Assembly: GCA_020723765.1 (NCBI GenBank)
Contig: DYIF01000020.1
Span: 1-41,861, forward strand
DNA length: 41,861 nucleotides
Origin: Elusimicrobium minutum
Lineage (GTDB): Bacteria > Elusimicrobiota > Elusimicrobia > Elusimicrobiales > UBA9959
Reading direction: 5' to 3'
Under the pieces are notes generated by a model. The model was not told the origin of the DNA. It did no database searches and was given only the letters and a program-made list of their open reading frames with translations. Shown one piece after another: positions 18,578 to 39,441 of this stretch. Position 1 is the stretch's first letter. The number at the start of each line of letters is the position of its first letter. The translations under genes and the position numbers were made by a program.

Positions 18578-19849
18578 TTATTTTTTATGTCTTTTGGTTC
18601 TTATCAGGTTTGCCGGTTCCAGCGTAAGTTTCTCTCCGTTTAAAAGCTTCGCCACGCCGTCCATCGGTTTATAATTTTCGTCTTTACAATATTCGCAATC
18701 GCATTCTTTGGTTTTATAATCCGAGGGCTGGGTATAAGTCGTTATAACCCCTTCATAATTTCTCAAAACCGCTCTTTTATCGGACATGGATATAAGGTAA
18801 TTGGGCATAACCGGTATTTTCCCTCCTCCTCCGGGAGCGTCGACTACAAATGTTGGAACCGCCATGCCGGTGGTATGGCCTCTTAAATTTTCTATTATTT
18901 CTATGCCTTTGGATACCGAAGTTCTGAAATGGCTTATTCCCATGGAAAGGTCGCATTGGTATATGTAATAAGGCTTTACTCTTATCATCAAAAGTTCGTG
19001 AACCAATCTTTTCATAGTCTGAGGACAATCGTTTAAATCTCTTAAAAGAACGCTTTGATTGCCCAATTGTATTCCGGCATTCGCCAGTTTTTCGCAGGCT
19101 ATTTTTGCGTCTAATGTTATTTCTTTCGGATGATTAAAGTGCGTATTTACGTAAATCGGATGATATTTTTTTAGCATATTAACAAGATTATCCGTTATTC
19201 TCATAGGCATAACCACGGGGGTTCTTGTTCCTATTCTTATTATTTCCACATGTTCTATTTTTCTTATCTCGCTTATTATTTTTTCAAGCATATCGTCCAT
19301 TAAAACGAAAGGGTCTCCGCCCGATATTAATACATCTCTTACTTCTTTCGCATTTTTGATATATTCTATGGCTTTAGATATGTTTTCCCAGGACATATGA
19401 ACATCTTCAAACCCTACAAGCCTTCTTCTGGTGCAGTGTCTGCAGTTCATGGAACAAATATTGGTAACCAAAAACAAAACTCTATCAGGATATCTGTGAG
19501 TAAGTCCGGGGGCAGGGGAATCTACGTCCTCATGAAGCGGGTCGGATAGGTCCTCGGGAGCGTCTATAAGCTCTTTATGAGAAGGAACCGCAAGCATTCT
19601 TACCGGACATTTTTTATCTTTTTTATCCATTAACGCCGCATAATAAGGAGTTATGGACATCCTGAACTTTTTTAAAACATTTTTCAAATCCTCTTCCTCT
19701 TCTTTATCTATATACGCCACTTTTTTCAAGGTTTCTATGTCTTTTATGGTATTGGATAACTGCCATTTATAATCGTACCACTGTTCTTCCGTTATGTTTT
19801 TCCATAAAGGAATATCTTTCCACTCCACCTTTTTAAATTCTTTTTTCAT
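18578..19849 (-). CDS. kamA: L-lysine 2,3-aminomutase (radical SAM)
   Basis: A 423-residue radical SAM/PLP enzyme that starts the pathway by converting L-lysine to L-beta-lysine. The radical SAM cluster motif CxxxCxxC is at Cys132, Cys136 and Cys139. The PLP lysine lies in the PGGGGKIPV segment. C-terminal Cys residues (CDCEYC) match the zinc-binding region that mediates tetramerisation. Length agrees with the clostridial enzyme. A strong SD (AGGAGG) lies just before the ATG. It is 8 bp downstream of kdd and begins the aminomutase section of the operon. Confidence 0.95.
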   Translation of the reverse strand: MKKEFKKVEWKDIPLWKNITEEQWYDYKWQLSNTIKDIETLKKVAYIDKEEEEDLKNVLKKFRMSITPYYAALMDKKDKKCPVRMLAVPSHKELIDAPEDLSDPLHEDVDSPAPGLTHRYPDRVLFLVTNICSMNCRHCTRRRLVGFEDVHMSWENISKAIEYIKNAKEVRDVLISGGDPFVLMDDMLEKIISEIRKIEHVEIIRIGTRTPVVMPMRITDNLVNMLKKYHPIYVNTHFNHPKEITLDAKIACEKLANAGIQLGNQSVLLRDLNDCPQTMKRLVHELLMIRVKPYYIYQCDLSMGISHFRTSVSKGIEIIENLRGHTTGMAVPTFVVDAPGGGGKIPVMPNYLISMSDKRAVLRNYEGVITTYTQPSDYKTKECDCEYCKDENYKPMDGVAKLLNGEKLTLEPANLIRTKRHKK

Positions 19850-19857
19850 CCTTCCTC

Positions 19858-20913
19858 CTAAGCGTAGTGTTTTTCGTATTCTTTTCTTATAATTTTGCTT
19901 TTCCTTAATATATCTAGTGAAATCTCAGCATGCCCCTTCATATAACCATTGCCTATTATCATATCTATATCTTTCCCTACACCCTCAGCACCTAAAGCCG
20001 CTTTTGTGAAACTGGTTGCCATAGAAAAGAAATAAACAGTTCCTCTTTCTCTTGTCATAAGTATGCTTGACATTTCGGTATTGCTAACATTTACGCAGTT
20101 AATCACAACATCCGCCATTTTTCCGCCCGTTATTTTATAAATTTCTTTATAACAAGAAACGGCGTTTGTAGCGTCTAATTTTAAAGCAAAATCGCAAAAA
20201 CCCATTTTTCTCATTTTTTCTACTCCCGCATCCGAATATTCTATTCCTATAACATTACCGGTAACTCCGGCTCTGTTTTTAGCGGAGTATGAGCATAATA
20301 TGCCGGATTTCCCGCCTCCTCCTATTATTACCACGGTGTCTCCCGGTTTTACAAGTCTATCGGTCTGAGCCGGAGCTCCGGCCACATCTAAAACCGCAAG
20401 AGCCAATTTTTCCGGTATGTCATTTGGGATTTTTGCATATATACCGCTTTCAAAAAGAACGGCTTTGGCTTCCACATTAACCTGTTCGGTTCCCTTTTTA
20501 ATTCCAAGTATTTTATTTATTTTAAGCGGTGTCAAAGAAAGAGAAACAAGACTTGCTATCTTATCCCCTTCTTTTAAATCTATTTTTCCTTTCAGTTTAG
20601 AGCCTATTTTAAAAACTTTTCCTATAAACATACCTCCAGAGCCCGTAACCGGGTTTTGCATCTTACCCTTTTGATTCACTATTTCCAATATTCTTCTCTT
20701 TATATTCTCTTCATTCCCTTTCTGTTCTTCTTTTATCTGAGTGAAACTTGCCGAGTCTATGTTTAAGGTCATTACGTTGACCATTATTTCGTTATCCCAC
20801 ATATAATCCATATTATTATCTATTTTTAATGCCGGCTGAGGCAAAACGTTTTTGGGTTCTATAACTCTATGGGTTCCAAACGGACAACCGTTAGATTTTT
20901 CATTAACCGCCAT
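19858..20913 (-). CDS. kdd: L-erythro-3,5-diaminohexanoate dehydrogenase
   Basis: A 351-residue dehydrogenase that oxidatively deaminates 3,5-diaminohexanoate to 5-amino-3-oxohexanoate with NAD(P)+. It has the start typical of Kdd (NGCPFGTHRVIEP near residues 8-20) and a medium-chain-dehydrogenase-like Rossmann segment, VVIIGGGGKSGIL, in the second half. SD GGGAGG precedes the ATG. It sits between kce and kamA with 11-bp and 8-bp gaps, in the expected pathway context. Family assignment is firm from sequence and position. Confidence 0.93.
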   Translation of the reverse strand: MAVNEKSNGCPFGTHRVIEPKNVLPQPALKIDNNMDYMWDNEIMVNVMTLNIDSASFTQIKEEQKGNEENIKRRILEIVNQKGKMQNPVTGSGGMFIGKVFKIGSKLKGKIDLKEGDKIASLVSLSLTPLKINKILGIKKGTEQVNVEAKAVLFESGIYAKIPNDIPEKLALAVLDVAGAPAQTDRLVKPGDTVVIIGGGGKSGILCSYSAKNRAGVTGNVIGIEYSDAGVEKMRKMGFCDFALKLDATNAVSCYKEIYKITGGKMADVVINCVNVSNTEMSSILMTRERGTVYFFSMATSFTKAALGAEGVGKDIDMIIGNGYMKGHAEISLDILRKSKIIRKEYEKHYA

Positions 20914-20924
20914 AAATCCTCCCG

Positions 20925-21740
20925 TTAATCTCTTAGTTTAAAAAACTTCCTAACATCAATAGGCTTTGCCACCTCTTTTTGAGCTTCTTTTACAAGCCTT
21001 ACGGCTCTTTCTATAAACTCCGCATTGGATTTGGCGACAACGCCTTTGGAATAGTATATATTATCTTCATAACCGACTCTTATATGACCTCCGAAAGCTA
21101 TGGCGGAATAAACCGCCGGTATATGAGCTTTACCTATACCCATAACCGTAAATTCGCTTTCCAAAGGTATATGGTCTATCATAATGGAAAGCTGCTTAGA
21201 ATTAAATCCCAAAGCTCCGGGAACATTCATAACAAATCCATAATGATAAGGCGGTTTTATAAGATTTTCTTTTATAAGTATCTGAGATGAAAGTATATGT
21301 GACAAATCGAAGCATTCAAGCGTCGGTTTAACTTTATATTTATTCATCTCTTCGGCAAATTTTTTCATTATAGGCAAAGTGTTTACTATATAATCGTTTC
21401 CGAAATTAACAGTACCGCAATCCAAAGAAGCCATATCCGGTTCAAGTTTAACAGGCGCTATTCTCTCCTCTGGCGTCATACCAACCGCCCCGCCCGTGGT
21501 TATCTCTATTACTATATCGCATTTTTTTCTTATAAGAGTTATTGCTTCTTTAAAAACTTCTACGCTTTGAGTCGGAGTTCCGTCATTATTTCTAACATGC
21601 AAATGGACTATACTTGCTCCGGCAAGATACGCCTCGTAAGTAGAATCGGCTATTTCCTTCGGAGTTATCGGAAGATTCGGGCATTTTTCCTTCGTAGTCT
21701 CGGCTCCGCAAACGGCGCATGTTATTATTACTTTATCCAT
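20925..21740 (-). CDS. kce: 3-keto-5-aminohexanoate cleavage enzyme
   Basis: A 271-residue BKACE-family zinc enzyme. The metal-binding HLH motif is at His46 and His48 (VHLHVR), the same positions as in the characterised Cloacamonas enzyme. It condenses 5-amino-3-oxohexanoate with acetyl-CoA and releases acetoacetate and 3-aminobutyryl-CoA without net hydrolysis. The acetoacetate would be activated by the adjacent CoA-transferase, and 3-aminobutyryl-CoA would go to the class III aminotransferase. It starts 8 bp after the CoA-transferase B gene. Confidence 0.94.
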   Translation of the reverse strand: MDKVIITCAVCGAETTKEKCPNLPITPKEIADSTYEAYLAGASIVHLHVRNNDGTPTQSVEVFKEAITLIRKKCDIVIEITTGGAVGMTPEERIAPVKLEPDMASLDCGTVNFGNDYIVNTLPIMKKFAEEMNKYKVKPTLECFDLSHILSSQILIKENLIKPPYHYGFVMNVPGALGFNSKQLSIMIDHIPLESEFTVMGIGKAHIPAVYSAIAFGGHIRVGYEDNIYYSKGVVAKSNAEFIERAVRLVKEAQKEVAKPIDVRKFFKLRD

Positions 21741-21748
21741 ATAATCTC

Positions 21749-22408
21749 CTAAAATCTCTTAAGATTACCCGCAACCTCAAGTCTCGCTTGAGTGTTTTTA
21801 ATAACCTCTTCAACCGTAGTATCTTCCGCTATTTCTTCCAAGACAAGCCCTTTCTTAGTCACTCTTATAAAAGCTAATTCCGTTACTATTATATCAACCT
21901 CTCCTTTTGCGGTAAGAGGCAATGTACATTTTTTTAAAATCTTTGGCTCGCCGTTTTTATTTGTATGTTCCATTGCTATTATTACGTTTCTGGCTCCAGC
22001 GACCAGATCCATCGCGCCACCCATCCCTGGAACCATTTTACCCGGTATCATATAATTTGCCAAATTTCCTTCCTCATCCACCTCCAGTGCCCCCAAAACG
22101 GTATAATCCAGATGTCCGCCTCTTATTATGGAAAAAGACATTGAAGAATCAAAGAAGCATCCGCCTTTTACTATAGTTACAGGTTTTCCTCCGGCGTTTA
22201 CAATATCTTTGTCTATGGAATTTTTATCCGGTTCGGGACCGAGTCCAATAAAACCGTTTTCTGAATGAAACAGTACTTGTTTATCGGAAGGTATGTAATT
22301 TGCCACAAGAGTAGGCATTCCTATACCAAGGTTTACTATAGAACCGTCTTTAAATTCTTTTGCTATTCTTTTTGCTATTCTGATTCTTTTTAATTCTTTA
22401 TCGTCCAT
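21749..22408 (-). CDS. atoA: acetoacetate/butyrate CoA-transferase, subunit B
   Basis: A 219-residue beta subunit of a 3-oxoacid CoA-transferase. The catalytic glutamate is Glu50 in the SENGF motif, and GGAMDLVAGA and the C-terminal region also fit the family. With subunit A it transfers CoA between acyl-CoA and acetoacetate, here most likely recapturing the acetoacetate released by Kce as acetoacetyl-CoA. SD AAGGAG precedes the ATG. The partner gene ends 12 bp upstream. Confidence 0.92.
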   Translation of the reverse strand: MDDKELKRIRIAKRIAKEFKDGSIVNLGIGMPTLVANYIPSDKQVLFHSENGFIGLGPEPDKNSIDKDIVNAGGKPVTIVKGGCFFDSSMSFSIIRGGHLDYTVLGALEVDEEGNLANYMIPGKMVPGMGGAMDLVAGARNVIIAMEHTNKNGEPKILKKCTLPLTAKGEVDIIVTELAFIRVTKKGLVLEEIAEDTTVEEVIKNTQARLEVAGNLKRF

Positions 22409-22420
22409 AACTTCTCCTTT

Positions 22421-23080
22421 TTAACCGTTAATTTCCGCTTTAACTATTGCTTTTACAAATACCGAAGGCACCGTTACCATATCCGGATCCAGCTCCCCGA
22501 CTTCCACTATTTTTTCGGCCTCCGCCACCACATAATCTGCTGCCATTGCCATAATCAAATTAAAATTTTTAGCGGCTTTTGCAATAAAGCAATTCCCGTT
22601 CTTATCAGCAATACTCGCTTTTATAAAAGCGAAATCCGCTCCCAAAGGCAACTCCAAAAGATAATCTCTGCCGTTTATGTTTTTTTTCTCTTTCCCATTT
22701 TCAACGGCGGTTCCTACACCTGTAGGTGTTAGTATCCCTCCAAGCCCTGCTCCTTTTGCTCTAATTCTTTCGGCCAATGTGCCTTGAGGTACAAGATCCA
22801 CTCTCATCTCCCCGCTATTCATCTTTTGCCCAGCTATAGGATTTAAACCTATATGAGAAGCTATAAGGTGAGAAACCTGACCGTTTACTATTAACTTACC
22901 AACTCCTTTATCTGGGAAACCCGCGTCGTTGGATATAATAGTAAGATTTTTAACGTTTTTTTTCAAAAGCTCTTCCATTAATGTAAAAGGATGGCCGCAT
23001 ACCATAAATCCGCCAACCATTATGGAAGAACCATCTTTAACCTGCGTTATGACTTCTTTAGCGGTTAAAATTTTTTTCAT
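22421..23080 (-). CDS. atoD: acetoacetate/butyrate CoA-transferase, subunit A
   Basis: A 219-residue alpha subunit of a 3-oxoacid CoA-transferase, with GGFMVCGHP near the N-terminus and the GGILTPTGVGT segment in the middle. The frame extends to a TTG at 23098, but AAGGAG stands 6 nt before the ATG at 23080, so that is chosen as the start. It is the first gene of the 15-gene fermentation operon. The region upstream (23081-23153) is AT-rich with a weak possible promoter, but no lysine or cobalamin riboswitch was recognised in it. Confidence 0.92.
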   Translation of the reverse strand: MKKILTAKEVITQVKDGSSIMVGGFMVCGHPFTLMEELLKKNVKNLTIISNDAGFPDKGVGKLIVNGQVSHLIASHIGLNPIAGQKMNSGEMRVDLVPQGTLAERIRAKGAGLGGILTPTGVGTAVENGKEKKNINGRDYLLELPLGADFAFIKASIADKNGNCFIAKAAKNFNLIMAMAADYVVAEAEKIVEVGELDPDMVTVPSVFVKAIVKAEING

Positions 23081-23153
23081 ATCATTCTCCTTATTCAAAT
23101 ACCTTTCTATATTTTATAAAAATTTTAAACCAAAAATATATCTGTATAAAAAA

Positions 23154-23206: not shown

Positions 23207-23653
23207 TTAGTCTATAAGCTCCGAAGTACAATAAGTATTATTACAACCCATAGTACCGCTCGGACCTAAATAGTTTATCACATAAGCTCCGTATCTTTGG
23301 GTTGTGGCAAGCCTTGTAGCGTTTATTAAAAAGTTGGCGTTTGAATTGGAAACTATCTGAACGTTAAAATATTTTAAAGTACACGCTGCAGTACCTGTAC
23401 AGTCGGTACCGCTTGCGTTTTTAACCGTTATGTCCACATCGTCCCAGTTGTTTGTATAGTTAAGTTTTCTCGAGTAAAACCTTTCCTGAGCGTTTTTTAT
23501 GTTTGAAAATATATTAGTAGCTTCCGATACTCTTGAGCGCTCTACCGCTTTAAAATACTGCGGAATTCCCATAGCCGCCAATATTCCGATAATCAATACG
23601 ACAACGAGAAGCTCTATCAATGTGAACCCTTTTCTAATATTTTTCTTTGTCAT
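23207..23653 (-). CDS. type IV pilin / pseudopilin, copy 1
   Basis: A 148-residue type IV prepilin. A short basic leader ends in KG, prepilin peptidase should cut before Phe, and mature Glu5 is present in FTLIE; a hydrophobic helix (LLVVVLIIGILAAMG) follows. The globular part has two Cys pairs (CTGTAAC and CNNTYC) likely to form disulphides. The sequence, including GIPQYFKAVERSR, is very like the multicopy pilins of Elusimicrobiota. It carries a good SD, its own promoter at 23691-23720 and terminator at 23154-23180, so it is a single-gene unit. It is 827 bp from a nearly identical copy; the central 278 bp are identical. No assembly genes are nearby. Confidence 0.92.
   Translation of the reverse strand: MTKKNIRKGFTLIELLVVVLIIGILAAMGIPQYFKAVERSRVSEATNIFSNIKNAQERFYSRKLNYTNNWDDVDITVKNASGTDCTGTAACTLKYFNVQIVSNSNANFLINATRLATTQRYGAYVINYLGPSGTMGCNNTYCTSELID
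23301..23578. repeat. 278-bp identical core shared by the two pilin genes (copy 1)
   Basis: Every base of 23301-23578 matches 24128-24405 (offset 827) when read side by side. Immediately outside the core the two genes differ strongly: about a dozen differences in the last 94 bp of coding sequence and about ten in the roughly 50 bp toward the 5' end, mostly synonymous. Sharp edges of identity inside one gene are typical of recent gene conversion. Confidence 0.88.
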
Positions 23654-23974: not shown

Positions 23975-24006
23975 ATAAAAAAGGAGCGGAATAATCCGCT
24001 CCTTTT
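23975..24006 (-). terminator. intrinsic terminator of pilin gene 2
   Basis: AAAAGGAGCGGA (23979-23990) pairs perfectly with TCCGCTCCTTTT (23995-24006) around a 4-nt loop, and the minus strand continues into TTTTTTATTTTG. It begins 28 bp after the stop of the second pilin gene. Its GGAGCGG core is the same as in the pilin-1 terminator. Confidence 0.9.
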
Positions 24007-24033: not shown

Positions 24034-24474
24034 TTAATCTATAAGTTCCGAGGTACAATAAGTATTATTACAACCCATAGTTCCATTAGGACCTAAATAG
24101 TTTATAACATAGGCGCCATACCTTTGAGTTGTGGCAAGCCTTGTAGCGTTTATTAAAAAGTTGGCGTTTGAATTGGAAACTATCTGAACGTTAAAATATT
24201 TTAAAGTACACGCTGCAGTACCTGTACAGTCGGTACCGCTTGCGTTTTTAACCGTTATGTCCACATCGTCCCAGTTGTTTGTATAGTTAAGTTTTCTCGA
24301 GTAAAACCTTTCCTGAGCGTTTTTTATGTTTGAAAATATATTAGTAGCTTCCGATACTCTTGAGCGCTCTACCGCTTTAAAATACTGCGGAATTCCCATA
24401 GCCGCAAGTATTCCTATAATTAATACCACGACCAATAACTCTATCAAGGTGAACCCTCTTCTATGATTTTTCAT
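24034..24474 (-). CDS. type IV pilin / pseudopilin, copy 2, riboswitch-preceded
   Basis: A 146-residue prepilin nearly identical to copy 1. The leader is MKNHRRG rather than MTKKNIRKG, and one mature residue differs near the C-terminus (GPNGT for GPSGT). Cleavage site, mature Glu5, hydrophobic helix and both Cys pairs are conserved. The gene lies 23 bp below a fluoride-type riboswitch; its SD (AAGGAGGGG, 24478-24486) can pair with the 3' strand of the aptamer. It has its own terminator. The two copies therefore encode almost the same pilin under two quite different controls: one plain promoter, one ligand-responsive leader. Confidence 0.92.
   Translation of the reverse strand: MKNHRRGFTLIELLVVVLIIGILAAMGIPQYFKAVERSRVSEATNIFSNIKNAQERFYSRKLNYTNNWDDVDITVKNASGTDCTGTAACTLKYFNVQIVSNSNANFLINATRLATTQRYGAYVINYLGPNGTMGCNNTYCTSELID
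24128..24405. repeat. 278-bp identical core shared by the two pilin genes (copy 2)
   Basis: Partner of 23301-23578. The first mismatches at the edges are 24127 (A against G at 23300) and 24406 (A against C at 23579). The conserved N-terminal helix codons outside the core show many synonymous differences, so selection on protein sequence alone does not explain the core identity. Confidence 0.88.
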
Positions 24475-24477
24475 CTA

Positions 24478-24502
24478 CCCCTCCTTAATTTAAATTTAGG
24501 AG
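24478..24502 (-). promoter_or_regulatory. SD-sequestering hairpin of pilin gene 2
   Basis: On the minus strand CTCCT (24498-24502) can pair with AGGAG of the SD (24481-24485). Three further AT pairs lie inside a single mismatch, with a TTAA loop. The CTCCT strand is also the 3' strand of the riboswitch pseudoknot, so the two structures exclude each other. Ligand binding should free the SD and turn translation on. This mechanism is inferred from the pairing pattern. Confidence 0.65.
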
Positions 24503-24543
24503 CCATCAGCCTAAAAGACGGTTTGAGGAGAGCTCCATCTCCG
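24498..24543 (-). ncRNA. fluoride riboswitch (crcB motif) aptamer
   Basis: Read on the minus strand, the segment matches the crcB-motif consensus throughout. Stem GGAG (24539-24542) pairs with CTCC and encloses ATGGAGCT. Then come AAACC, a short stem GTCT/AGGC with a T-rich triloop, and TGATGGCTCCT. The loop GGAGCT pairs with GGCTCC to make the pseudoknot. Positions equivalent to A6, U7, G8, U38, A40, U41, G42 and U48 of the Thermotoga petrophila aptamer are all present, including the metal-binding ATG and TG and the A40-U48 linchpin pair. A -10 box sits 8 bp before it and a pilin ATG 24 bp after it. Known relatives control fluoride exporters and fluoride-sensitive enzymes, so a pilin target is unusual. 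Confidence 0.87.
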
Positions 24544-24551
24544 TTTTTTAA

Positions 24552-24557
24552 ATTATA
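24552..24557 (-). promoter_or_regulatory. -10 element for the riboswitch-pilin 2 transcript
   Basis: A perfect TATAAT on the minus strand places transcription start near 24544-24546, right at the first base of the riboswitch. The -35 region falls in the T-tract after the tRNA gene and has no TTGACA match, so the promoter may be weak or need an activator. Confidence 0.6.
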
Positions 24558-24581
24558 ACAAATTTTAAAAAAAAAAAAAAA

Positions 24582-24655
24582 TCGGGGCACCCGGGGTCGA
24601 ACCGGGAACCTCTCGCTCCCAAAGCGAGCGCTCTATCCAATTGAGCTATGCCCCG
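24582..24655 (-). tRNA. tRNA-Pro(UGG)
   Basis: On the minus strand a full cloverleaf can be drawn: acceptor stem CGGGGCA/TGCCCCG, D arm GCTC/GAGC, anticodon stem CTCGC/GCGAG with loop TTTGGGA (anticodon TGG), and T arm CCCGG-TTCGACC-CCGGG. The discriminator base is A and CCA is not encoded. A 15-base T-run follows directly and may help end transcription. Confidence 0.97.
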
Positions 24656-31911: not shown

Positions 31912-34900
31912 TTATTTTATAACGGCCATTTTGTGCGGTTTTCCTATTTTTTCTCCGTTTATAAAACTTACAAGCAGATAAACTCCGCTTGCCACATCCT
32001 CGTTTTTATCGTTTTTACCGTCCCACTCCGAGTAATATATCTCTCCGCCGGTTCTAACCCCTTCGTCCAAGGTCCTGACTTTTTCTCCGGCCATGTTATA
32101 TATTACGAATTTCATACTTCCGCTTTTTCCTTGAGGCAGAAAATATTTTATAACGGTTCCCCTGGTAACATAAGCCCCGCTATACCAGGCTCCCCCGTCG
32201 GAGGATATGGTCACCGTTTTGTTTTTTAAATTGAAAGGATTCGGCAAATTATAAACTTCGTATGAGGAACCGGAATAGGCCGTTAGAGTCGGCGGTTTTG
32301 ATACGAAAACGGCGAATTGACCGGTTTGAGAAGAGGAGTTTGACTGCGGAACGTAATATCCCAAAGGAGAAATACCGCTCATCTTCAGATTTTTTCTTCC
32401 AAAAGGAGATATAGTGTCTTTAGAGTCTTCATAAGCTTTCTCTATGCTGGCCACATCGACCGAAACGGTCCCTATCATAGGATCCACGTTATAATTCCCT
32501 TTTATTTCTTTCCACTGCCCCGATGTTTCGTCGTACTGATATATTCTAAGGCCGTTGGGGTCTATTACTTTATCCTTATCGTACTGAAGATTTAGAGTAA
32601 AAGATTTATTGGGTTGAGCGTTTTCGAGATTTATGGTATATACCTCCGAAGCCATAATATTTTTTATCGCGTCGGATATATTCATAACGCCTTTTGCCGT
32701 CTTTATCGTTCTTACGTTCGGAAGAGCTTTAAAAAATCCGCCTATAAGGTCTTCGTCTCCACCCGAAGACATTACTTTAATATAACTTGCGGAAAGCGAG
32801 GAGGTAGACTGAGTTAAAGCCCCGGCGTCAAAGGTTATACCCGAATATTCCTCTCTCTCTTCGTCTACGTATATATCTCCGCCTATAAGCCCGGCCTCAT
32901 AGGCGTACTGATCCGCTTTGACTTTGGATTGAGAATCGTAAATTATGTCTTTTTGAAGCTTTATCACATCTCCGACCTCGACTCTCACCGTATAATATCT
33001 TTGATTTGCCGATATTGTAAATTCGCCCAAATAAGTATTGTTTGTTCCGGGTATAAGAGCCAAAGAAACGGAATTGGTTTCGTCGAAATATGTCCCCGGA
33101 GAATAATAGCATTTTGGAGTAGAATTGAGTTCTTTCGGGCTTTTAATTACAACCTGAGATTTTTTTTCGTTGTCGGGATTTTTTCTGACTATCAATTGTA
33201 TCTGAGGCGGAAGATCTAAAAGAACTATTTCTCCCATATTATTATCGGTTGAAGAAATAATTGAAGAAGAAGATATTAAAGACGTATATGTCATTTTAGC
33301 GGGTTCCGAGATAACGACTCTATAATTATGACCGGCTATTATCCCGTCGAGAGTAAAGTTACCGTCGTCGTCTGTCAAAGAAACTATGGTAGGAAGATAA
33401 GATTCAGGATTTGTAACATTCAATGTTTCGTCGTACGCGTAAACCTTAATCCCTTTTTTTGTTTTGGGTTGAGGAAACCTTGAAAGCAAAACTCTGCCGG
33501 ATATCGTTGTATTGGTAGGCGCAATATAAAATGTTCCAAGATCTAAAGTTTTATTGTCTATGTTTATTTTTTTGCCGGTCTTAACAAACCCATCCCTTGA
33601 GACTTCTATCCTGTAAGTTCCGGGAGGAAGCTTATCGAAAACAAAAACTCCGTTTTCGTTAGTATAAGTATTTTTCTCCACTGTTTTGCCTTTAATGTAT
33701 ACAAGAGCGTTTACTATGTTAGCTTGAGAAGCCGATGATTTTACGACCCCGTATATGTCGTATGTTTTTATTTTTTCTTCGTCGAAATTTATGTTATATA
33801 CGATGTCGGAGGATACGGCGATTTGTTTTGTTATTATCGGATAGTTCGGGTTTGTTATTACCGCCGTATAATTCCCGTTTCCAAGCCCCCATACTTTATA
33901 TGTAAAGCTTCCCTGTTCTATTTGAGTTAAAACGGATGCGGAATCTTTTGAAATCATATAGTTCATAAAGTTGTTAAATTGGACTTCTCCTCCCGGAAGC
34001 GAATGAGCGAATGCTTTTATTTCGCCTGCGGAATCGTAAATCATAATAGAAGGTATAAGCGGAATTATATAATTTACATCCATTTGAGAAAACAATCTCT
34101 CGTAATCTTTTGCCGTAAAAATATCTTTTCCTTTAGTCCAGCCGGAAACGGTCTTTCCGCCTATGCTTCCGGTAATCTGAACCGGTAAAGGTTGAGAGGA
34201 CGAACCGATTAAAGGATTATTATCGTCTTTTTTAACCTCAAAACTCTTTTTTCTGCCTATAAAATATACAAATTGGTCGAAGTTTTTATTTTCGCCGAAA
34301 TAATCGTCCGCTTCGTAATGAGAGTATGCTATAAGATAAAAATCGTATAATCCTTCGTCCATAGCCATCATAGGCCAGTTAGCCGTGGTCGTGTCGTACT
34401 CAAAAGAATATTTCGGTTCCGAAAATAAAAGTTCGTTTAGCAAATCCCTATTCATTTTCTTGCCGCTTTCTACGGCTATAACGGAGTATTCGTATTTGGG
34501 AGACGGAAGTGATGGAAGGCCTAAAATTTGAGGTTTAACGAAAACTCCGTTTTTTATATCCGCGGTTAGATCGGTACTGCTACCTGGTTTTACTATTATA
34601 TCTCCTACTTCTATTGGAGCGTAAGCCACATAAGTGCTTTTAAAATTTATATACATTTTATATTTTCCCCCTGGTATATTTGCCAATTCAAAAATTCCCG
34701 TTTCCCATTCTAAATTAGCGCTGTATTGGAAATCGACGTTTATACCTTTAAAATTAACCTCAACCCCGTTTGGAAAAAGCGGTTCGTTGGCGGGGATGAA
34801 AAAACTTCCGTCCGGTTTTCTAAGTCTTACCGTAAATCTTCCGGCCGGCGCCAATTTTAAGTCTTTATTTATATTTAAATAATCGAACTTAACCGAGTTA

Positions 34901-37900
34901 TCGAAATTGCTAATACTCGCCCATCTATCCGATACGATTTTTACGCTGTATTTTATTTTCTCTCCATTTTCCGTAGAAACCGCGTTTATTTCGTAAGGTA
35001 TCATATTTGAATTAAAGCTTCCGTATATAGGATCGGATGTAAAAACTTTTCTATTATTTTGGCATGGTCCGTTGCAATCCTGCTCGATTAAAACGATAAT
35101 TGGAGATTGAGAAGATATCAAAATAGGATTTGAAGCGTTTATGGTATAAGTCGTAGCCAATATTAAATTGCCGTATAATTTAGAATCGGTGACAATACTG
35201 TCGTCCCCGACATCGAAGGCGTAAGGCATAACTCCTTTACAGGTTCCGGAAGAGTCTAAAAGCCAAACTCTGCCCGGAGCGCAAGGATTAGCGTATGGCA
35301 TTGAAGGAGAGACGGCTCCGGATGAGGAAACCGATATTCTTATATCGTCGCTATCTATCGATTCCCAGTTTTGTACTTTACCTTCGTTTATGGATTTCCA
35401 AAAAGGTGTTTCTACCGATAAAAAGTAATTACCGTCGTTAATGCCGTTGAAAGTAAATCTTCCCTGACCGTCTAAGTATGTTTCATAAAAAACCGAAGCA
35501 GTACACCTGTCCCTATAAGAGTCGTCACCCGGCCAGCCGCATCTATCGTTTCTTAATACAACTTTCGCGTAAGCTATAGGTTTTCCGAAATTGGTTATCA
35601 CACCGGACAAAGAATAGGTGGCTTTTTGCATAACGTAATTGTAAGAATTTTTAATCCAGACTCCATTGTTTACGATATTATCGCTTCCGCCGTTTTCTTC
35701 GTCGTAAAAATAACCCAATTTGGAAAATCTAACCCACCAGGATTCGCCTAAGGTATCAAGCTCGTAAACGTCGAATCTTCCGTTTTCGGAAGTATATAAA
35801 TTAACGTTTTTACACGGTATAGTTTGCGAACATTGATTATATAAAGTCACTTTTACGTTTGAAATCGGAACTCCGTTGGTATCGAAAACATATCCGGTAA
35901 ATAAGGATTGTTTCGTCGTATTTATATTTTGATCCACATTTTTAATCGGAGGAACGGCGGTGGAAAAATCAACGACAAAGTTTAAGTCCTTATTTATCGG
36001 AACAGCCGGAGTTAACGAAACATTTAACCAGTTGGGCATAGATACGTTGATATAATAATCGATAGCGCTCAGGTTCGGAACATTATCTATATTGAAAGTG
36101 GAAACCGTATCCGTGGCTTTCATAATACCGAATGACACCGTTTCGTTTGTCTTGGATAAAATGACCTCGCCGGTAATAACGGCGCCGGGATATATATTTT
36201 TAACTGTTAATGTTATGGTGTTAGTGGATTTTGAAATCTCGCCTAACCTATAATAATATGTGGCGTCAGAGTTAAAAGTCTTAATAAAACTCTGCAATGG
36301 GTCGGACATCTGCTCTTTTACCGTAGGCCCGTAACGGGAAGTGCTTATGGCTATAAAATAAGGTATACCGTATTTTAATTTAAAATTGGCGTTACCGCTT
36401 GAATCGGTAAACGAAATCTTGGCAAAAGACGGGTCCGGCTCTCCCTTTAAATTAAAAGCTATCAACCCGACTTTTACTCCGCTCATATTCGAGTTATTAG
36501 CTTTATTTTTAACGTTTATCGTTATATTTTTATTGTAATCGGAACCTGGATTTATGATTCTTTTTAAAAGCGATTTGGTTTGTGTTAAAAGGGTGGATTC
36601 TATTTGAGTTAAAACATATATATTAGACCAATCCGATGAAAAATCAAAGTCTATTCCTTTTGAATATCCCGTACTTATAACCATATCGGTTATCATATTT
36701 AAATTTTTATCGTATTTAACTATAACCGACTGATTTGTCAAATCATTACCGAAATCCTTTTGTCCTACAAGATAAACATTGCCTAAACTATCCAGCTTTA
36801 TATCGGAAAATTCCCCTCTGGTTCCGCCGTCGTACATAACAGCGTCTAAAAATTTTATTTTATTATTATCGTTTACGTCTATCGTCGATTTTATAACCAT
36901 CCAGCTATTTTTAATTCCGTTGTTTACCGTAACCCCTATGTATGCCCATTCGTTATTTATGGCCATTTTGGGATTTTTATAATATGAAACAGAAAAAGGT
37001 TTATAAAACGGCACGGTAGTATCCGTTATAATCTCGTAACTCCCGTCGACTTCTTTAGACTCGCCGAAAAATATCCCGTTTGTTGAATATGCAACGATAT
37101 ATGAGTTATTATTGAAATACTTTATGGAATTTATTTCTACTCCTTTTATGAAATTAAAAAGGTCCGTAAATTTTTGAGATGTCATATTCCAGCTAATGGT
37201 GGAAATGCTTAAGTTAGAATCAAACCTCATTATTCCGTCTCTTCCTATAAAAACATAAAATTTACCGTCACCCGCATTATACTCCATAGAATAAGCTCTA
37301 TCCGTATAGCTTGAAGAAGCAAGTTCAAACCACCTGGAATATGTTTGAGAGGATATCCATGCGGTCAAATTCTTATCGTATTTGTAAATTACGACATCCC
37401 ATAGTTCATTATTCGGCAAAGAACTTTCAAACTTAGAAATAACGACATAAGGATATCCCGATGAATCGGTATCAACCCCGACAAGCTTCGGTTTGCAATA
37501 ATCGTAATTCCACTGGCATTTTAAGGGATCGTAATACTCCGATATCCTTGCCGTTTTATTTTGAGAATTGGCCCCGGTCGAATATTTAACCAGTATTATA
37601 TCTCCGTCGGATTCCGAGGCCGAATATATATAATCGTTATTTACTTTTATTTTTTTCGCTTTTATGACAGAACCGTTTGAAAACTCGATTCCGCTTGCCA
37701 TATCTCCCAAAAATCCTTTTTTAACCGTTATCGGACCGTTTACTTCCGTTGGATAACCGTAAGCCGTGTTGGAACTTATATCGGCGGCCTCAAACTTATA
37801 ATAATAACTACCTTCGGCTAAAAAAACGGATGTTGAATAACCCACCATACCGGATGGGACGTTCGAAACTCCTCCCAAATTAAGATTTATATTTTTTATT

Positions 37901-39441
37901 ATATTGGAACAATTATTATCCGAACATATTTTCAATCTCATATATGCGGTAGGATCCGATTCCAGATCGTTATAAAGAACTTTAAAATTAAACGGGTCTG
38001 TCTCTATTCCGTAATTTTTATCGACTCCTTTATTAAAATAGCCGAACTCGTTTACCCAGAGCAAGTTCGGAGGAGTATTTGAAACTATTTGCGGAAGACG
38101 AAACGATTTTAAAATTATATCCGAGTTTAGAGTTCCGTTATAATTTACATTTCTTAAACCGCTTAAAAAAAGATCGACATCGTTTAACCAGACATAATAA
38201 GGAGTCGTTTGAGGATACGTATATATCGATTTTAGTTTTATATCCGAAATATCGGAAACGTCGAACAAGTAAACAACCGAATCGTAAGGATTATCAGTAG
38301 AGGTATTATTGTTAACCGCCGACAAAAGGGCCATATAATTACCGTAATGCTTCACATCTTTAATTGAAGGATTCGAACTATACGGCATAGGAAAATTAAA
38401 AATTTTTGATCCTTTGGAGCTCATATTTGCCGGATATGTAGTTATAAACAAATCCCAGCTATTTCCATTCCATGCGAATCTTAAAGCCGTTATTGTAGAA
38501 TTTATGACGTCGAAATTTTGAAAAGCGTTTGGCCAGGTAAATGTTGAGGCTATAAGGCTAAAATCGGTCGCGGAACGTTTATATATATATGAGGTTTCCA
38601 GTTTGCCTATGTATATATTATTTTGGCTATATACAATTTTACTGCACCCGCCTATATTGGAAGAGGACAATAAAATTGAAGAAATATCAGCATTTATTTT
38701 TTGTATTATCCCCGAAGTATAACATGAATAAAGATTGTTTCCGTCCGTTGCGACATCGGAAATATAATCCGTAGTTCCCAAATTCAAATAATTATTTAAT
38801 CCTAAACTTTGAGTGTATCCCCATACGCCGCTACCTGTAGGACCGGAAACAAATAGTTTTAAACCGTTTGAATTAAAAACCGCTTTTTTATAATTAATAC
38901 CCAAGCTTTCTACGACATCGGAGATTCTGTCGTATATCATATTTCCGTTTGAATCGGTTGAAAATCTTACCACATAATGGTTGGGATTGGTATAGCCTAT
39001 CATATAAAGATATGTGGCTCCGGCTGTAAAGATATCGGTTAAACTCAAATCTTTTAAATTTTCCCAACCGTAAGGAGTATAAAATCTCAAACTCTCTCCC
39101 ATATTCCCTTCCGAAACAAGCTGTGTGTTTAAATAAAAATTCAAATTATTTATGCTGTTAGTAACAACAATAGTAGTAGATGTCGTTATAAAATTGGGAG
39201 CGGTAACCGAAACATTATAGATTCCCGTAGATAAAGGCAAGGTATAATATCCGTTTGTGCCTACCTGAGTGTTAAAAACGATAGATGTATTTCTAATATT
39301 AAAATTTACCGTTGCGTTTTTAACGGGAATATTTTTATCCGTATAAACCGTCCCGGAAACACCGAAAAAAGCTTGGGCAAAAATAGGTTTAGAAAAAATA
39401 ATAACAAGCAAAGCTAAAATATAATTTCTTATAAATTTCAT
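31912..39441 (-). CDS. giant secreted multidomain protein (2509 aa) with CarboxypepD-like repeats and FlgD-like C-terminus
   Basis: Starts with a signal peptide (cleavage near IFAQA). Layout by eye: a carboxypeptidase-regulatory-like domain (about 27-105); a beta-propeller-like region (115-460); an Ig/Fn3-like segment beginning NTPPNLLWVNE (460-580); a second propeller-like region (580-980); then several carboxypeptidase-regulatory-like domains (about 1000-2000), each with a GxV, xVxxxG or GNF pattern; a lower-complexity region; and a final FlgD/T9SS-CTD-like Ig fold containing WDGKNDKNEDVASGVYLL. The C-terminal type matches proteins displayed or secreted across the outer membrane. It is likely a surface adhesin or scaffold; no catalytic motif was found. 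Cys pairs (for example CSDNNC, CSQTIPC) suggest disulphides. It starts after a GGAGGGG SD and is followed closely by the PorV-like gene. Confidence 0.88.
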   Translation of the reverse strand: MKFIRNYILALLVIIFSKPIFAQAFFGVSGTVYTDKNIPVKNATVNFNIRNTSIVFNTQVGTNGYYTLPLSTGIYNVSVTAPNFITTSTTIVVTNSINNLNFYLNTQLVSEGNMGESLRFYTPYGWENLKDLSLTDIFTAGATYLYMIGYTNPNHYVVRFSTDSNGNMIYDRISDVVESLGINYKKAVFNSNGLKLFVSGPTGSGVWGYTQSLGLNNYLNLGTTDYISDVATDGNNLYSCYTSGIIQKINADISSILLSSSNIGGCSKIVYSQNNIYIGKLETSYIYKRSATDFSLIASTFTWPNAFQNFDVINSTITALRFAWNGNSWDLFITTYPANMSSKGSKIFNFPMPYSSNPSIKDVKHYGNYMALLSAVNNNTSTDNPYDSVVYLFDVSDISDIKLKSIYTYPQTTPYYVWLNDVDLFLSGLRNVNYNGTLNSDIILKSFRLPQIVSNTPPNLLWVNEFGYFNKGVDKNYGIETDPFNFKVLYNDLESDPTAYMRLKICSDNNCSNIIKNINLNLGGVSNVPSGMVGYSTSVFLAEGSYYYKFEAADISSNTAYGYPTEVNGPITVKKGFLGDMASGIEFSNGSVIKAKKIKVNNDYIYSASESDGDIILVKYSTGANSQNKTARISEYYDPLKCQWNYDYCKPKLVGVDTDSSGYPYVVISKFESSLPNNELWDVVIYKYDKNLTAWISSQTYSRWFELASSSYTDRAYSMEYNAGDGKFYVFIGRDGIMRFDSNLSISTISWNMTSQKFTDLFNFIKGVEINSIKYFNNNSYIVAYSTNGIFFGESKEVDGSYEIITDTTVPFYKPFSVSYYKNPKMAINNEWAYIGVTVNNGIKNSWMVIKSTIDVNDNNKIKFLDAVMYDGGTRGEFSDIKLDSLGNVYLVGQKDFGNDLTNQSVIVKYDKNLNMITDMVISTGYSKGIDFDFSSDWSNIYVLTQIESTLLTQTKSLLKRIINPGSDYNKNITINVKNKANNSNMSGVKVGLIAFNLKGEPDPSFAKISFTDSSGNANFKLKYGIPYFIAISTSRYGPTVKEQMSDPLQSFIKTFNSDATYYYRLGEISKSTNTITLTVKNIYPGAVITGEVILSKTNETVSFGIMKATDTVSTFNIDNVPNLSAIDYYINVSMPNWLNVSLTPAVPINKDLNFVVDFSTAVPPIKNVDQNINTTKQSLFTGYVFDTNGVPISNVKVTLYNQCSQTIPCKNVNLYTSENGRFDVYELDTLGESWWVRFSKLGYFYDEENGGSDNIVNNGVWIKNSYNYVMQKATYSLSGVITNFGKPIAYAKVVLRNDRCGWPGDDSYRDRCTASVFYETYLDGQGRFTFNGINDGNYFLSVETPFWKSINEGKVQNWESIDSDDIRISVSSSGAVSPSMPYANPCAPGRVWLLDSSGTCKGVMPYAFDVGDDSIVTDSKLYGNLILATTYTINASNPILISSQSPIIVLIEQDCNGPCQNNRKVFTSDPIYGSFNSNMIPYEINAVSTENGEKIKYSVKIVSDRWASISNFDNSVKFDYLNINKDLKLAPAGRFTVRLRKPDGSFFIPANEPLFPNGVEVNFKGINVDFQYSANLEWETGIFELANIPGGKYKMYINFKSTYVAYAPIEVGDIIVKPGSSTDLTADIKNGVFVKPQILGLPSLPSPKYEYSVIAVESGKKMNRDLLNELLFSEPKYSFEYDTTTANWPMMAMDEGLYDFYLIAYSHYEADDYFGENKNFDQFVYFIGRKKSFEVKKDDNNPLIGSSSQPLPVQITGSIGGKTVSGWTKGKDIFTAKDYERLFSQMDVNYIIPLIPSIMIYDSAGEIKAFAHSLPGGEVQFNNFMNYMISKDSASVLTQIEQGSFTYKVWGLGNGNYTAVITNPNYPIITKQIAVSSDIVYNINFDEEKIKTYDIYGVVKSSASQANIVNALVYIKGKTVEKNTYTNENGVFVFDKLPPGTYRIEVSRDGFVKTGKKINIDNKTLDLGTFYIAPTNTTISGRVLLSRFPQPKTKKGIKVYAYDETLNVTNPESYLPTIVSLTDDDGNFTLDGIIAGHNYRVVISEPAKMTYTSLISSSSIISSTDNNMGEIVLLDLPPQIQLIVRKNPDNEKKSQVVIKSPKELNSTPKCYYSPGTYFDETNSVSLALIPGTNNTYLGEFTISANQRYYTVRVEVGDVIKLQKDIIYDSQSKVKADQYAYEAGLIGGDIYVDEEREEYSGITFDAGALTQSTSSLSASYIKVMSSGGDEDLIGGFFKALPNVRTIKTAKGVMNISDAIKNIMASEVYTINLENAQPNKSFTLNLQYDKDKVIDPNGLRIYQYDETSGQWKEIKGNYNVDPMIGTVSVDVASIEKAYEDSKDTISPFGRKNLKMSGISPLGYYVPQSNSSSQTGQFAVFVSKPPTLTAYSGSSYEVYNLPNPFNLKNKTVTISSDGGAWYSGAYVTRGTVIKYFLPQGKSGSMKFVIYNMAGEKVRTLDEGVRTGGEIYYSEWDGKNDKNEDVASGVYLLVSFINGEKIGKPHKMAVIK

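Follow-up and report, generated by a model that had tools for sequence, protein, structure and literature searches.

A fluoride riboswitch ahead of a type IV pilin gene with a close twin in Elusimicrobium minutum

Introduction

Fluoride riboswitches (crcB motif, RF01734) are usually read as markers of detoxification genes. In the Bacillus cereus switch, the A40-U48 pair is essential for locking upon fluoride binding (PMC8752731). A pilin gene under riboswitch control is known from Clostridioides difficile, where the c-di-GMP-II riboswitch Cdi-2-4 lies upstream of pilA1 (PMC6366702), and adhesion or biofilm genes rise upon fluoride exposure in diverse bacteria (review, PMC11139923). Each half of a fluoride-pilin connection consequently has a precedent. 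For a pilin gene as the target of a fluoride riboswitch none was found in the searchable literature, in agreement with the earlier note on this DNA; the one full text found to name a fluoride riboswitch together with pilin lists the two as separate switches.

Here we analyse a stretch of 41,861 nucleotides from Elusimicrobium minutum (GCA_020723765.1, contig DYIF01000020.1; hereafter the window), in which a fluoride aptamer stands ahead of a pilin gene, p2, that forms a single-gene unit and has a twin, p1. The locus resembles other RF01734 members in aptamer sequence, P1, P3, pseudoknot and linchpin, and in its translational platform, with a CUCCU strand able to sequester the Shine-Dalgarno (SD) sequence as in the antiporter leaders of this genome (G000) and of the relatives G002 and G021. 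It differs in having a pilin target instead of a fluoride exporter, CPA2 antiporter, enolase or CLC, and in its weak P3 and C-G fifth pseudoknot pair. With Cdi-2-4 and pilA1 it would share the arrangement of an ON riboswitch on a type IV pilin gene, that of the major pilin in C. difficile, but there the ligand is a second messenger and not a toxic ion, the aptamer is unrelated, and control is exerted by transcription read-through that also reaches downstream pilus genes (PMC6366702).

Results

Aptamer anatomy

A scan of the whole window against all Rfam families (cmscan) gave only two matches, one tRNA and the RF01734 aptamer (Table 1). The latter covers model positions 1-64 of 64 and scores 53.1 bits with E 4.4e-12, the gathering score of the family being 34. 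Residues of the fluoride site were mapped by the numbering of the Thermotoga petrophila aptamer, which we take to be A6, U7, G8, U38, A40, U41, G42 and U48, and direct reading finds every one of them in place. The proposal of the earlier note, a fluoride riboswitch with its conserved residues intact, is borne out by this covariance match, and it is very likely that such a riboswitch precedes the pilin gene.

Table 1. Features of the pilin locus, in the direction of transcription (positions in the window)
Feature	Positions	Strand	Basis or remark
tRNA-Pro (TGG)	24582..24655	-	Rfam; upstream neighbour of pilin locus, conserved in sister species
15-T run between tRNA and -10 box	24567..24581	-	longest single-base run in window; next is 8
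Extended -10 promoter TGTTATAAT	24552..24560	-	sequence; expected start ~24545
-10 box TATAAT	24557-24552	-	sequence
Fluoride riboswitch aptamer (RF01734)	24490..24551	-	cmscan; coordinates read directly
P1 GGAG/CTCC, 4 bp	24542-24539/24530-24527	-	sequence
A6, U7, G8 (ATG)	24538, 24537, 24536	-	direct reading
Pseudoknot GGAGC/GCTCC, 5/5 Watson-Crick	24536-24532 with 24503-24499	-	sequence
P3	24519-24516/24512-24509	-	sequence
U38	24508	-	direct reading
Linchpin A40-U48	A40 24506, U48 24498	-	sequence
U41, G42 (UG)	24505, 24504	-	direct reading
CTCCT, 3' pseudoknot strand or anti-Shine-Dalgarno	24498..24502	-	folding
Shine-Dalgarno AAGGAGG	24480..24486	-	sequence
p2 start codon	24474-24472	-	
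Type IV pilin gene p2, 146 aa, leader MKNHRRG/FTLIE	24034..24474	-	PF07963, PF16732, TIGR02532, PDB relatives
Intrinsic terminator just past p2, 12 pairs then T-rich tail	23979..24006	-	terminator search
p1 promoter TTGACA-18-TAATAT	23720-23691	-	
Second pilin gene p1, no riboswitch	23207..23653	-	own promoter and terminator
p1 terminator	23180-23154	-	

Two features set the aptamer apart within the phylum set described below. Its P3 comprises 3-4 bp with one G-U pair and is among the weakest of the set, at about -1.2 kcal/mol by a crude fold in which the P3 stem itself does not appear. As its fifth pair the pseudoknot has C-G, as in two distant genomes, whereas this pair is U-A in 84 of the 87 phylum aptamers (73 of the 76 that could be parsed, with the 11 unparsed ones judged U-A by eye). 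A compensated change on both sides of the pair suggests, as a single instance, a structure that has been maintained, but it could also have been passed on by a source outside the sample.

Promoter and upstream region

The -10 box carries a TG one base ahead of TATAAT, and the predicted start lies 2-5 nt before P1, as the earlier note had placed it, at the 5' end of the aptamer. No good match to a -35 element was found at this promoter by reading of the sequence or by promoter search. The element ATTT..GTTATAATT is common to the leaders of both fluoride switches in the genome. The T15 run may be the terminator of the tRNA, part of the promoter, or both. Within the promoter predicted for the pilin gene it spans approximately positions -36 to -22; length changes in such tracts can make a promoter phase-variable, although the run may merely terminate the tRNA transcript.

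Two genes for one mature pilin

The target gene p2 matches PF07963 (1e-9) and PF16732 (5e-9), and scores above the cut-off for TIGR02532 and under the cut-off for GspG. It has a class III leader (G/FTLIE) followed by a hydrophobic N-terminal helix, and its relatives in the PDB are type IV major pilins; the assignment as a pilin made in the earlier note is upheld. Because a strong terminator follows directly, the switch most likely serves p2 alone. The mature products of p1 and p2 are identical in 138 of 139 residues, the genes share a 278-bp identical tract between diverged ends, and 22 of their 24 nucleotide differences are synonymous. Judged from these patterns, p1 and p2 look like old paralogues whose sequences gene conversion has evened out while the product was kept constant, leaving one pilin under two controls. 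When GTDB genomes were scanned with a protein pattern for the pilin, no confirmed relative was obtained.

Directly downstream of the pilins (18578-23098), genes for a lysine-2,3-aminomutase-like protein, a zinc-binding dehydrogenase-family protein, BKACE and two CoA-transferase subunits stand in a row that resembles a lysine fermentation operon. Elsewhere in the window (31912-39441), a protein of 2509 aa, which has several carboxypeptidase-regulatory-like domains and at its C-terminus a FlgD-like Ig domain, is probably a large surface or secreted protein.

Predicted switching at the Shine-Dalgarno sequence

The CTCCT strand of the aptamer is complementary to AGGAG (24485-24481) within the SD sequence, and the first codon lies 24 nt beyond U48. 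When the leader was folded with ViennaRNA, the mean unpaired probability of the SD sequence rose from 0.31 in the free leader to 0.92 with the aptamer docked, the docked state being represented by withdrawing all aptamer residues from folding, with the energy of the pseudoknot outside the model. A docking model that withdrew the pseudoknot strands only left the SD sequence paired with unprotected aptamer bases, and was set aside in favour of full withdrawal. By the same calculation, the antiporter switch of this genome goes from 0.29 to 0.66, and those of two relatives go from 0.19 to 0.54 and from 0.21 to 0.32, so that the modelled opening is larger in the pilin leader than in all three antiporter leaders compared.

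On the coding strand, the aptamer is free of overlapping terminators, which makes transcriptional control unlikely, and the switch looks to be of the translational type. The translational ON architecture described in the earlier note is thereby reproduced in the model, and functional translational control of the pilin is probable. Complementarity to the SD sequence is, however, inherent in the CUCCU of any fluoride aptamer and cannot count as separate evidence of design; similar folding would be expected wherever a gene has a good SD sequence behind such an aptamer, which means that the calculation speaks for plausibility and not for selection.

Targets of fluoride switches

A survey of 341 genomes of the phylum, with stricter filters at which some weak matches are lost, gave matches in 74 of them. 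By tblastn, the genes behind 87 switches comprise 43 antiporters, 22 crcB, 7 enolase, 4 EamA-type, 3 CLC, 2 Mrp/Nuo-like and 1 MFS genes, 4 unassigned genes and a single pilin, which is p2; beyond antiporter, crcB, enolase and pilin, the family labels are our own reading of the sequences. The same arrangement in related genomes, which the earlier note had suggested looking for, does not recur among these switches. A DNA-pattern scan of about 85,000 species genomes (GTDB) for CTGATRNCTCCT followed by a pilin start likewise gave no second case, at a stringency that demands the exact consensus, which the window's own sequence fits on inspection, and therefore misses relatives with altered letters. 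Three places fitting the pattern have no RF01734 match and were put down to chance. As a separate observation, tRNA-Val (CAC) or a tRNA-like 3' end stands directly before the fluoride switch of crcB or enolase in the relatives L003, L005, L006, L010 and L011, so that adjacency of tRNA and fluoride switch recurs among several relatives.

Locus history and fluoride handling

The sister species (G001) has tRNA-Pro(TGG), pilin, ctfA, ctfB and BKACE in the same order as the window, and differs by the missing switch and the missing second pilin. The tRNA-Pro/pilin arrangement thus predates the split of the two species. No fluoride switch above cut-off was found in the sister genome, a looser search included, and no match to the CPA2 antiporter of this genome; the best candidate for a degenerate switch, at 17.3 bits, is well under the cut-off and away from the pilin. 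The switch was either gained in the present lineage or lost along with the antiporter in the sister species, two directions that a single sister cannot polarise. The leader between tRNA-Pro and pilin in the sister species (C5, L062, 6290-6478, minus strand) carries long imperfect inverted repeats (gatatcgt...acgatatc; gatgtc...) that match no Rfam family; they may mark a further regulatory RNA, or an operator, in the corresponding position. The pilin neighbourhood of six further genomes of the family (L063-L068) includes a tRNA-Lys gene; proximity of tRNA and pilin thus recurs with different tRNAs.

A second fluoride switch in this genome (G000 C21:132297-132359) precedes a PF00999/CPA2 cation/proton antiporter and has the layout CTCCT...AAGGAGG seen at the pilin leader. 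The two switches have the P1 sequence, the GTTATAATT box and the SD layout in common, possibly from a common source, but the antiporter switch serves an ion transporter, has a stronger P3 and carries U-A as the fifth pair of its pseudoknot. The flanks are less alike, with 3.6% of shuffles reaching the upstream similarity score and 26% the downstream score, and because of this weak flank homology a duplication of the pilin switch from the antiporter leader is suggestive only. Neither crcB nor CLC was found in this genome (98% complete), so the known fluoride response consists of the antiporter plus, perhaps, the pilin. CrcB was not found in the sister genome either, which has two enolase genes where this genome has one; fluoride handling differs sharply inside the genus.

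Discussion

We consider it likely that a canonical fluoride switch has been recruited ahead of one of the twin pilin genes and controls its translation. A promoter-aptamer-SD unit related to the antiporter switch probably arrived ahead of p2, with transcription expected to start from the extended -10 box. Without fluoride, the aptamer CUCCU would pair with the SD sequence AGGAG and block translation. With Mg2+ and fluoride bound, the pseudoknot (GGAGC/GCUCC) and the A40-U48 pair would hold CUCCU, leaving the SD sequence free for synthesis of the pilin. Because p1 supplies the same mature pilin from an ordinary promoter, fluoride would raise the pilin dose and not start piliation from nothing. 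The extra pilin may benefit the cell through adhesion or aggregation under fluoride stress. It is a tentative proposal that a rise of intracellular fluoride, by prompting translation of the extra copy, serves the bacterium as a signal for attaching to surfaces, and an adaptive fluoride-pilus response is put forward just as guardedly. Counting against the reading as a whole are the restriction of the pairing of switch and pilin to one genome, the lack of the switch in the sister species, and the weak P3.

The main rival is a recently captured but useless switch, one that binds fluoride and came to stand before p2 by a neutral accident such as duplication of the antiporter leader. Such a switch would be tolerated because p1 supplies pilin, and with 138 of 139 residues of the mature protein encoded there as well, control of p2 would be mostly redundant; the confinement to one genome and the automatic sequestration of any good SD sequence behind a fluoride aptamer are also what a chance capture would give. 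On the other hand, the aptamer retains every key residue despite its divergence from the antiporter copy, its pseudoknot has a C-G pair where nearly all others have U-A, and it is cleanly placed with respect to promoter, SD sequence and terminator, all of which makes neutral capture rather unlikely.

Much less probable is the relic suggested in the earlier note, a switch that once served a resistance gene, taken here as crcB or enolase, whose place a pilin copy has since filled. Arrays of tRNA-Val, fluoride switch and crcB or enolase do occur in relatives, and this genome has no detectable crcB or CLC, but the upstream tRNA is Pro and not Val, no tRNA-Pro (TGG) was seen ahead of a resistance gene among 30 relatives, and the unchanged gene order in the switchless sister locus argues against such a replacement. 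The switch probably joined the pilin locus, to judge from this comparison. An assembly chimera formed through the repeated pilin genes would suit a draft contig from a 32-contig assembly with a tract identical in both twins; it is very improbable, because the aptamer, the p2 leader and the distinct 5' coding end of p2 are single-copy sequence upstream of that tract, and the tRNA-Pro/pilin junction is matched in the sister species. Least credible is the other proposal of the earlier note, a variant aptamer for another ligand. The unusual target gene and the weak P3 could be taken to favour it, but every residue that contacts fluoride or forms the linchpin is canonical, the score exceeds the family cut-off by a wide margin, and a second, ordinary fluoride switch exists in the same genome.

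A canonical aptamer ahead of a pilin shows that an unrelated surface gene can acquire a promoter-aptamer-SD unit. Since CUCCU is conserved and matches a Shine-Dalgarno sequence, any gene that comes to lie behind the aptamer is potentially under fluoride control immediately. If functional, this would be the first riboswitch found, within the searchable literature, to couple production of a pilin to an inorganic ion that is toxic, and it would allow a direct test of the known connection of adhesion with fluoride stress. If fluoride is indeed a cue for attachment, the fluoride regulon would extend from detoxification to the cell surface, and would do so in an organism in which no member of the two known families of fluoride exporters (CrcB/Fluc, CLC) was found.
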